64,000 nucleotides of DNA from Chlorobiaceae bacterium (GTDB taxonomy: Bacteria > Bacteroidota > Chlorobiia > Chlorobiales > Chlorobiaceae), in assembly GCA_013334865.1 (NCBI GenBank), contig JAAXWS010000009.1, positions 1 through 64,000 of the forward strand. The letters are read 5' to 3'. Position 1 is the first letter of the stretch. Each line of letters starts with the position of its first letter. Made by a program: the position numbers and the translations under genes. Shown piece after piece: positions 16,591 to 19,845 of the stretch. The notes under the pieces were generated by a model. It ran no database searches. It saw nothing but the letters and a program-made list of their open reading frames with translations, and was not told where the DNA came from.

Positions 16591-18000
16591 ATGGAACTGG
16601 GAAAAACGAGAAACGTGCATATCGTCGGCATCGGCGGGGCGGGCATGAGCGCCATAGCGGAACTGCTCCTGAAGTCGGGGTTCGGCGTCAGCGGCTCCGA
16701 CCTCTCTCCGGGCGAGGTGACCGAAAAGCTCCGGGACCTCGGCGCCGTGATCTACCACGGACACAGTGCCGAGCAGGTCGGATCGAGCGACGTGGTGGTC
16801 TACTCCTCCGCCGTCAGGCCCGAGAGCAACGTCGAGATCCTGGCGGCCGAGAAGCTCGGCATCCCGGTCATCAAGCGCGACGAGATGCTCGGCGAGCTGA
16901 TGCGCTACAAGTCCGGCATCTGCGTCTCGGGCACCCACGGGAAGACCACCACGACGGCCATGATCGCCACCATGCTGATCGACGCAGGGGAGTCCCCGAC
17001 CGTCATGATCGGCGGCGTGTCGGACTACCTCAAGGGGAGCACGGTCGTCGGTGACAGCCGGTACATGGTGATCGAGGCCGACGAGTACGACAGGGCCTTC
17101 CTCAAGCTTACCCCGACCATCGCGGTCGTCAACAGCCTCGAGTCGGAGCACATGGACACCTATGGCACCATGGACGAGCTTCGCTCCTGCTTCGCCCAGT
17201 TCGCCAACAAGGTCCCCTTCTACGGCCGGGTGGTCTGCTGCGTCGACTGGCCGGAGATCCGCAGGCTCATCCCGCGCCTCAACCGTCGCTGCATCACCTT
17301 CGGGATCGAGGAGCCGGCGGACGTCATGGCTTCGGACATCGAACTCGGCGAGTCGGGGTCCCGCTTCACGGTCGAGGCCTTCGGTGAGCGCCACGAGGGG
17401 GTCCGCCTCGGCGTGCCCGGGCGCCACAACGTGCTCAACGCCCTGGCCGCCTTCTCCACCGGCCTCGAGCTGGGGCTCGAGCCGCAGCGCATCATCGCCG
17501 GCCTGGCCCGGTACAGCGGCATGCGCCGCCGTTTCCAGGTGAAATATTCGGGCGACGACGGCCTGCTGGTCGTCGACGACTACGCGCACCACCCGTCCGA
17601 GGTCAAGGCCACCGTCCGTGCCGCCAAGGAGGGCTGGAAAGGCCACCGCATCGTAGCGGTGTTCCAGCCGCACCTCTTTTCGCGGACCGTCGAGTTCGCC
17701 GACGAGTTCGGATGGGCGCTGTCGAGGGCGGACCAGATCTTCGTCGCCGGCGTCTACCCGTCGCGAGAGCAGGCCGCCGACTACCCCGGGGTCACCGGCG
17801 AGCTGGTCGCCGAGGCTGCCCGGAAGGCCGGCGCGAAGCACGTGGCCTATGTCGCCGACCGCGACGGGCTGGAAGCCGCGCTGCGTCCCCTCGCCTCCGG
17901 CCCGACCCTGATCCTCTTCATGGGGGCGGGCGACATCACCCACACGGCGACGCAGTTCGCCGCTGAGTGCGGCAAAAGTGTAGCCGGCGGGGCCCGATGA
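16591..18000 (+). CDS. murC: UDP-MurNAc:L-alanine ligase
   Basis: A 469-residue MurC, which adds the first residue of the stem peptide. It has an N-terminal [12 protein letters not shown] Rossmann loop, P-loop [32 protein letters not shown], the FGIEEPADV region, and [11 protein letters not shown] in the C-terminal domain. ATG 16591 is chosen because homology begins at [13 protein letters not shown] and AAGGA lies upstream; longer reading overlaps murG. Its stop overlaps the murB start (ATGA). Confidence 0.95.
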
Positions 18001-18923
18001 TCTCGACGCAGGAGCTTATCCGGCTCATCAAGGGACCGATCGCCGTGGCCGAACCGCTGGCCCCCTACACCGGGCTGCGCATCGGCGGCACGGCGGACTA
18101 TTTCATCAAGCCCCGCGACCGGGCGGACCTGTGCCGTGCATTCGGCTATTTCAGGGAGCGAGGCCTGCCGTTCTTCATCCTCGGCAGGGGAAGCCGTCTC
18201 CTGGTGCACGAGGAGGGGTTCCGCGGCACGGTGATCGCTACCCACTACCTCGACCGGATCGTCGTCGACGGTGAGATGGTCGAAGCCGACGCCGGCGCCT
18301 CGATTCCGGCCATTGCCGATCGTGCCGCAAAGGCCTCCCTCGGGGGCCTCGGCCGGTTCGGCCGGGCTGCCGGTACCGTGGGGGGAGCCCTCTGCAGGAT
18401 CGACGGTTCTCCCGTAAAGGAGGCCGGCGAGTGCCTCGAGTGGGTCGACGTCCTCCGCAACGGTCGCGTCAGGCGGCTGAAGAACGGTGAACTGCATGCG
18501 AGCATGGGGACGCAGGGCATCGAGGCTGATGTGATCCTCGGCGCCGGCTTCAGGCTGCACAAGGTTTCTGGCAGGAACAGGCCGGCGGCTCCGGGCCATC
18601 CTCCGGATACCGGGGCCGCGCATTCCCGGGCGCTCTCCGGGAGGGTGTTCAGGGACCCCGCGCCGCAGTCCGGTTCGGGCCCCTCCTCCGCGGCCGAGCT
18701 GCTGGACGCCTGCGGCCTGAGGGGGGCAACCCGCGGAGGGGCCTCCTTCTCGGATGGCGACCCCAACCGGATCCTCAACAACGGGGCGGCTTCGTCGGAG
18801 GACGTGCTTGAACTGGTGCGCCATGCCAGTGAGGAGGTGCGGCAGCGATTCGGGGTGGTGCTCGAACTCGGACTTGTCCTTGTCCGAAACAACAGGAACG
18901 GAACCCATGTCCCCTTCAGCTGA
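17997..18923 (+). CDS. murB: MurB homologue (UDP-N-acetylenolpyruvoylglucosamine reductase fold) lacking catalytic residues
   Basis: This 308-residue protein is in the normal murB place between murC and ftsQ and has the MurB/FAD-binding-4 fold: YTGLRIGG (24-31), LGRGSRLLV (62-70) in place of the usual GxGSN, and AGTVGGAL (125-132). The active-site positions are altered. The NAGAYGG stretch after GGA reads RIDGSPV; the YRxS arginine region reads ASMGT (168-172); GSxFxxP, whose Ser donates the proton, reads SGRVFRDP (214-221) with Arg216 at that place; and the C-terminal LxxEV glutamate reads LELGL (289-293) with Gly292. The reading frame is intact and coupled to murC (ATGA), so it is not an obvious pseudogene. 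Enzymatic MurB activity is doubtful; a structural or regulatory role is conceivable. Confidence 0.8.
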
Positions 18924-19845
18924 CCAGATCGGTCGCGACGGCGACCAGCTTCAGGATCGGGGCGGCCCCGGTTCCCCGAAAGGGAAGGCCCTGCGCCTGC
19001 TCGCATTGCCACCGGTAGTCACGGTGGTGCTGCTGCTGCTTTTCGCCGGCATCGCCTCGCTCGCCTGGCAGGCCTCCCACTGGAAACAGAACGTCGTGGC
19101 CTCACGGGTGGTGGTCGTCGGCACCCGGCTGGTCCCGAAGGAGCGTGTCGTGCGCGCCCTCGCGCCGTTCGGCGGGCGGAAGCTGGCCGAGCTGCGCGAA
19201 GAAGATCTGCTCAAGGCGCTCTCGGCGGAGCCCTACATCAGGGACGCCAAGATCTCCAGGGAGCTCAACGGGATCGTGAGGGTGGCCATTACCGAACGGC
19301 AGCCGATGGCGGTTACGTTATTCCAGGGCAGCCCGATGATTATCGACACTGAAGGATTCCTGTTGCCGGACAACGCCGTTTCGGCCCGGTACCATCGCCT
19401 GCCGAAGGTCTACGGCATTACCGGGGCCACGCAGGCCGGCGGAGGGAGCTGGCGGATGCAGGAGGCCGAGAAGCGTACGCTCGACAGCATGGTCGCGGCG
19501 TTCGCCCAGTCGGAATACGCAGGTATCATGCTTCGGGAAATCCACATTGCTCCGGGAAACGGCTCATGGTTTCTGGTGTCCGGCTCAACGGTCAGATTTA
19601 TTCTCGGCAATGACGGTAACTTCAAGGAAAAGTTGAAAAAATTCGAGATATTCTGGCAAAAGGTCATTGCAAAAAAGGGGCTCGACTGCTATGAGTCTGT
19701 AGACCTTCGATTCCGGGAAAGGGTTTTCGCCAAGGATCCGGGAGTCGCCGGGTCCTCCCAGGCCCCGCCCGTACCCGCACCTGCACCCGCGCCTGCACCT
19801 GCACCCCCGGAAATGCCAACGGCCGTACAGCCTTCGCCCCGCTGA
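18907..19845 (+). CDS. ftsQ: Cell division protein FtsQ
   Basis: A 312-residue bitopic inner-membrane protein with a cytoplasmic N-terminus of about 31 residues, a transmembrane helix (about 32-55), a POTRA domain (about 62-132) and the FtsQ/DivIB beta domain. It links the early and late divisome parts through FtsB/FtsL. The last about 25 residues are a Pro/Ala dipeptide-rich tail encoded by a repetitive stretch near 19770-19815. The start at 18907 has AGGAACGG upstream and overlaps murB by 17 bases. The position directly before ftsA is canonical. Confidence 0.9.
   Translation: MSPSADQIGRDGDQLQDRGGPGSPKGKALRLLALPPVVTVVLLLLFAGIASLAWQASHWKQNVVASRVVVVGTRLVPKERVVRALAPFGGRKLAELREEDLLKALSAEPYIRDAKISRELNGIVRVAITERQPMAVTLFQGSPMIIDTEGFLLPDNAVSARYHRLPKVYGITGATQAGGGSWRMQEAEKRTLDSMVAAFAQSEYAGIMLREIHIAPGNGSWFLVSGSTVRFILGNDGNFKEKLKKFEIFWQKVIAKKGLDCYESVDLRFRERVFAKDPGVAGSSQAPPVPAPAPAPAPAPPEMPTAVQPSPR

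Follow-up and report, generated by a model that had tools for sequence, protein, structure and literature searches.

A putative MurB pseudoenzyme in the division gene cluster of Chlorobiaceae, apparently displaced by a long MurB of foreign descent

MurB is an essential cell-wall enzyme of UDP-MurNAc synthesis, and its type II form, represented by the Staphylococcus aureus structures 1hsk and 4pyt, carries a catalytic arginine (YRxS/T), a proton-donor serine (GSxF) and a catalytic glutamate (ExEV). Loss of murB from the dcw cluster has been noted in the Fibrobacteres-Bacteroidetes-Chlorobi group (PMC8871954). In our literature searches we came across neither a dead MurB in Chlorobi nor any example of MurB as a pseudoenzyme.

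Here we describe a dcw murB in a 64,000-nucleotide stretch of contig JAAXWS010000009.1 from a Chlorobiaceae bacterium, referred to as the window. The gene (17997..18923, + strand) encodes 308 amino acids and lies between murC (16591..18000, +), which overlaps its start as ATGA, and ftsQ (18907..19845, +), whose probable ATG at 18907 creates a 17-base overlap with the murB 3' end. The product matches both MurB domains of Pfam above their cut-offs, FAD_binding_4 with 41.3 bits (1.5e-10) and MurB_C with 58.1 bits (1.1e-15), and can be aligned by phmmer over its whole length with MurBs of known structure, whereas every NCBIfam MurB model scores it under its curated cut-off, including the equivalogs NF010480 (162.5 vs 259) and TIGR00179 (115.7 vs 144.5). 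An AlphaFold2 model of medium confidence (pLDDT 80, pTM 0.75) superposes on S. aureus MurB 4pyt/1hsk with TM-scores of 0.77-0.79, so the MurB fold is predicted to be retained; residues 137-142, 171-175 and 200-210, active-site loops included, are the low-confidence segments of this model.

A MAFFT alignment of the window protein with 1hsk, 4pyt and 11 single-copy MurBs of the same order leaves all three catalytic positions replaced. The arginine is glycine at codon 171 (G171; 18507..18509, +), with methionine (M170) in place of the preceding tyrosine; the serine is arginine at codon 216 (R216; 18642..18644, +); and the glutamate is glycine at codon 292 (G292; 18870..18872, +), where Glu290, two positions earlier, remains. 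Further conserved positions are affected: the asparagine of GxGSN is arginine at codon 67 (R67; 18195..18197, +), the proline of the PGxxGG loop is alanine at codon 125 (A125; 18369..18371, +), the MN asparagine is I135, and the NAGAYG loop is missing. In the ungapped phmmer alignment to 4pyt, Arg, Ser and Glu pair with the same three residues, and this agreement between two methods rules out misaligned catalytic residues. These results bear out the original prediction, which had placed an in-frame MurB homologue between murC and ftsQ with an ATGA overlap and a preserved overall fold, and had claimed that the serine was replaced by Arg216, the glutamate by Gly292, the arginine lost, and the NAGAYGG loop and GxGSN asparagine changed. 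Read from these residues, the active site of the dcw MurB appears lost and the protein is predicted to be catalytically inactive.

The same prediction had offered two possibilities, a further MurB in the genome or an altered MurB in use by the lineage, and the first of these was found. The window's genome, 98% complete in 44 contigs, contains exactly two MurB_C matches, the second being a 527-residue protein encoded on contig C20 (L001 799-2382, - strand), which rules out the case of a missing second MurB. This long MurB passes the TIGR00179 cut-off (180.2 vs 144.5) and scores 236.7 against 259 for NF010480. It keeps the serine (GSTF) and the glutamate (LExE) and has lysine for the catalytic arginine (YKxT), a substitution common to all inspected members of its clade. 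Almost all Chlorobiaceae carry a long MurB, which is the sole MurB_C match in most of those searched; one genome, G064, has two long MurB genes (on C10 and C99). Among 84,980 species scanned, Silvanigrella/Fluviispira-type genomes encode relatives that match over the whole protein, C-terminal extension and all, at 33-40% identity, and Oligoflexales and SAR324 encode versions lacking that extension; in the six such non-Chlorobiaceae genomes searched, three of them Silvanigrella-type, the long-type protein is the only MurB_C match. Because it is the sole MurB in other genomes, the long MurB appears to do the UDP-MurNAc work. Its C-terminal extension of about 230 residues (residues about 300-527) is shared with Silvanigrellaceae and gave no match in Pfam and PDB sequence profile searches, while the hits of a fold search with the complete model were limited to MurB and FAD oxidases; a by-eye impression of a CBM9-type domain found no support in any of the three.

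In a tree of 51 MurB proteins, the long MurBs of Chlorobiaceae group with Bdellovibrionota/SAR324 proteins (support 100/100), whereas the dcw copies cluster with their dcw counterparts from the order's other families, of Chloroherpeton type (96/87), and sit on a stem 1.18 changes per column long; a Bacteroidota row (L214) forms a very long branch whose position carries no meaning. Sequence comparison establishes the window's dcw murB as the native, vertically inherited MurB of Chlorobia. The simplest reading of the other branch is that the long MurB was transferred into the ancestor of Chlorobiaceae, although we infer both donor and direction. With the long MurB placed among Bdellovibrionota/SAR324 and the dcw copy among intact relatives, an apparently transferred MurB therefore seems to have displaced the native one. 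Genomes from the outgroup families that gave a match encode a single MurB, which lies in dcw wherever that region was read (three genomes). The intact state of these relatives is evident from their sites, with Arg, Ser and Glu kept in 10 of 11 outgroup MurBs. The eleventh, a dcw MurB from G087 (L012 892-1785), has cysteine for the catalytic serine (GCIF); with this divergent protein left out, 75 columns that are invariant in the remaining ten outgroup MurBs carry a change in one or more of the Chlorobiaceae dcw copies. As a separate observation, the sole MurB of the single-contig genome G015 (L091, C1:1076735-1077590) is apparently frame-disrupted near its N-terminus, with a separate piece containing TGA, through either a true mutation or a sequencing mistake.

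Across 98 genomes of the class, an orthologue of the window gene occurs at the same place in seven relatives, giving nine dcw copies of this form in eight genomes (G000, G006, G007, G010, G012, G013, G016 and G018). Arg, Ser and Glu are never all intact together in any of them. By alignment, the arginine is kept only in G006, the serine in G007 and the second G013 copy, and the glutamate in G006, G010 and G012; across the orthologues the catalytic positions vary, reading G, G, A, R, S, G, P, T at the Arg site and R, R, K, R, G, R, S, K at the Ser site, and the GSN asparagine, PG proline and MN asparagine are lost as well in most copies. Since orthologues share the changes, an assembly error behind the losses is ruled out. 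With Glu kept in three copies and Ser in two, the dcw proteins of other species may retain weak activity. The second G013 copy (L046, C12:1-1100) lies on a 3.7-kb contig, runs off its end, and is 93% identical to the G007 copy, and it is probably contamination from a relative. In three relatives of Pelodictyon luteolum (G024, G025 and G029), a 181-residue truncated form consisting of the N-terminal part only sits in dcw beside ftsQ, and at the remaining junctions examined the gene is gone and murC directly abuts ftsQ. The dcw murB is missing in C. tepidum and C. parvum, among others, and is therefore dispensable within the family; its presence and absence need four changes on the long-MurB tree.

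Damage to the active site is accompanied by purifying selection. No internal stop interrupts the nine dcw copies over the available sequence, and their pairwise omega values lie mostly between 0.15 and 0.33 (extremes 0.12 and 0.33), whereas murC gives values around 0.1 and the long MurB around 0.15; the 181-residue forms give 0.05-0.22. These are NG86 estimates, rough where dS exceeds 1, and an omega below 1 indicates selection on the protein and says nothing on its function. Among the six nearest copies, codons 1-100 (17997..18296, +), the N-terminal domain, are the most constrained (mean omega 0.10, identity 0.86), followed by codons 213-308 (0.23), codons 101-190 (0.25) and the linker (0.70). 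In working MurBs, outgroup and long together, the N-terminal hundred residues are instead less conserved than the FAD and substrate parts (0.66 vs 0.72-0.81), and the dead copies reverse this order (0.77 vs 0.54-0.60 elsewhere). Thus, constraint has been lost from the active site and maintained in the N-terminal domain. Descent from an active enzyme, loss of the active site and purifying selection after that loss together mark the dcw protein as a putative pseudoenzyme.

Omega disfavours a neutral pseudogene, and on these comparisons the dead gene is not simply decaying. A slower decay, in which the frame is a relic held open only because translational coupling in the operon needs a bridge from murC to ftsQ, would fit the start and stop overlaps on both sides, the loss or truncation of the gene in other Chlorobiaceae and an omega higher than that of murC. 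Coupling, however, requires an open frame and not the conserved amino acids of the first 100 codons, relatives have cleanly removed the gene with murC still next to ftsQ, and in a substitution-only simulation with 0.5-1 substitutions per site the frame stays open in 1.3-5% of neutral runs; we consider such a relic unlikely.

The search with the dcw protein also matched free-standing proteins of 86 residues in the sister genus (g2). With a profile built from nine sequences, the family is detected in 50 of 65 sister-genus genomes and nowhere in the window's genus. Beyond the family, this profile picks up the N-termini of native MurBs, with 44-54 bits for most outgroups and 32-36 bits for dcw copies, against only 18-19 bits for the long MurB. 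These proteins (fourteen sequences, L222-L235; e.g. G024:C1:1411704-1411961, - strand) belong to no Pfam family and are homologous to MurB domain 1: NF010480 matches at 5e-7 over MurB positions 9-86, and the alignment to residues 1-86 of the window protein is gap-free, with 24 of 86 positions identical. Median omega among the fourteen is 0.09. In 14 of 14 loci read, the gene lies downstream of GNAT and acyltransferase genes and outside dcw; the window's genome and G013 have the GNAT gene but lack the 86-residue one. Because of this neighbourhood, the 86-residue protein may represent a separate co-option.

Taken together, we think it probable that the dcw murB encodes a pseudoenzyme that was displaced when a transferred MurB took over and has been retained because its N-terminal domain serves a non-catalytic purpose. 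Under this scenario, the Chlorobiaceae ancestor would have acquired the long MurB from a Bdellovibrionota-like donor, and the newcomer would have assumed UDP-MurNAc synthesis; some lineages would then have lost the native gene, another would have trimmed it down to the N-terminal part, and the window's lineage would have kept it at full length as a pseudoenzyme under purifying selection. The retained domain, expressed from between murC and ftsQ, would be non-catalytic and probably protein-binding, with MurC, FtsQ and the new MurB as candidate partners by position or pathway only. Since constraint falls mainly on the N-terminal domain, a non-catalytic function of that domain is the likeliest reason for retention, and the combination of purifying selection with the N-terminal shift in constraint lends indirect support to the suggestion that the inactive copy was retained for such a role. 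A part in the Mur/Fts complex, which the original prediction had proposed, would be one candidate. A broader version, which we regard as possible though rather doubtful, is that the native Chlorobia MurB already had a second, non-enzymatic N-terminal function that was freed on takeover and persists today in the full-length dead dcw MurB, the 181-residue dcw protein and the 86-residue protein.

A ligand-binding regulator, still sensing FAD or a UDP-sugar and adjusting Mur flux, would account for the retained fold and for the moderate constraint on MurB_C, but the parts that have changed are precisely the substrate and flavin contact motifs, and the truncated and 86-residue forms lack any substrate domain, making this reading quite improbable. 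Least credible is an altered but active flavin enzyme, whether a MurB whose catalytic residues have moved or a reductase acting on some other substrate: the predicted fold, both retained domains and the nearby Glu290 would allow it, but the catalytic positions are not fixed to a new set among orthologues, the accompanying Asn and Pro residues are also lost in most copies, the active-site loops are the poorly modelled parts, and a second MurB is present.

Retention as a displaced pseudoenzyme would mean that an essential cell-wall enzyme has apparently given way, across the family, to a counterpart of foreign origin, that the older copy persists among the division genes with no active site left, and, if the N-terminal function is real, that MurB has a role beyond catalysis. 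Compared with type II MurB of S. aureus, the window protein shares the fold, length, both Pfam domains and the dcw position, but differs in its three catalytic residues, in several conserved loop residues and in falling under the NCBIfam cut-offs. The long MurB of Chlorobiaceae and Silvanigrellaceae belongs to the same MurB family but to another lineage, and, unlike the window protein, it retains Ser and Glu, has Lys for Arg, bears the extension and is encoded outside dcw. With pseudoenzymes in general, that is, dead paralogues with a non-catalytic role, the window protein has in common a dead active site, a kept fold and purifying selection.
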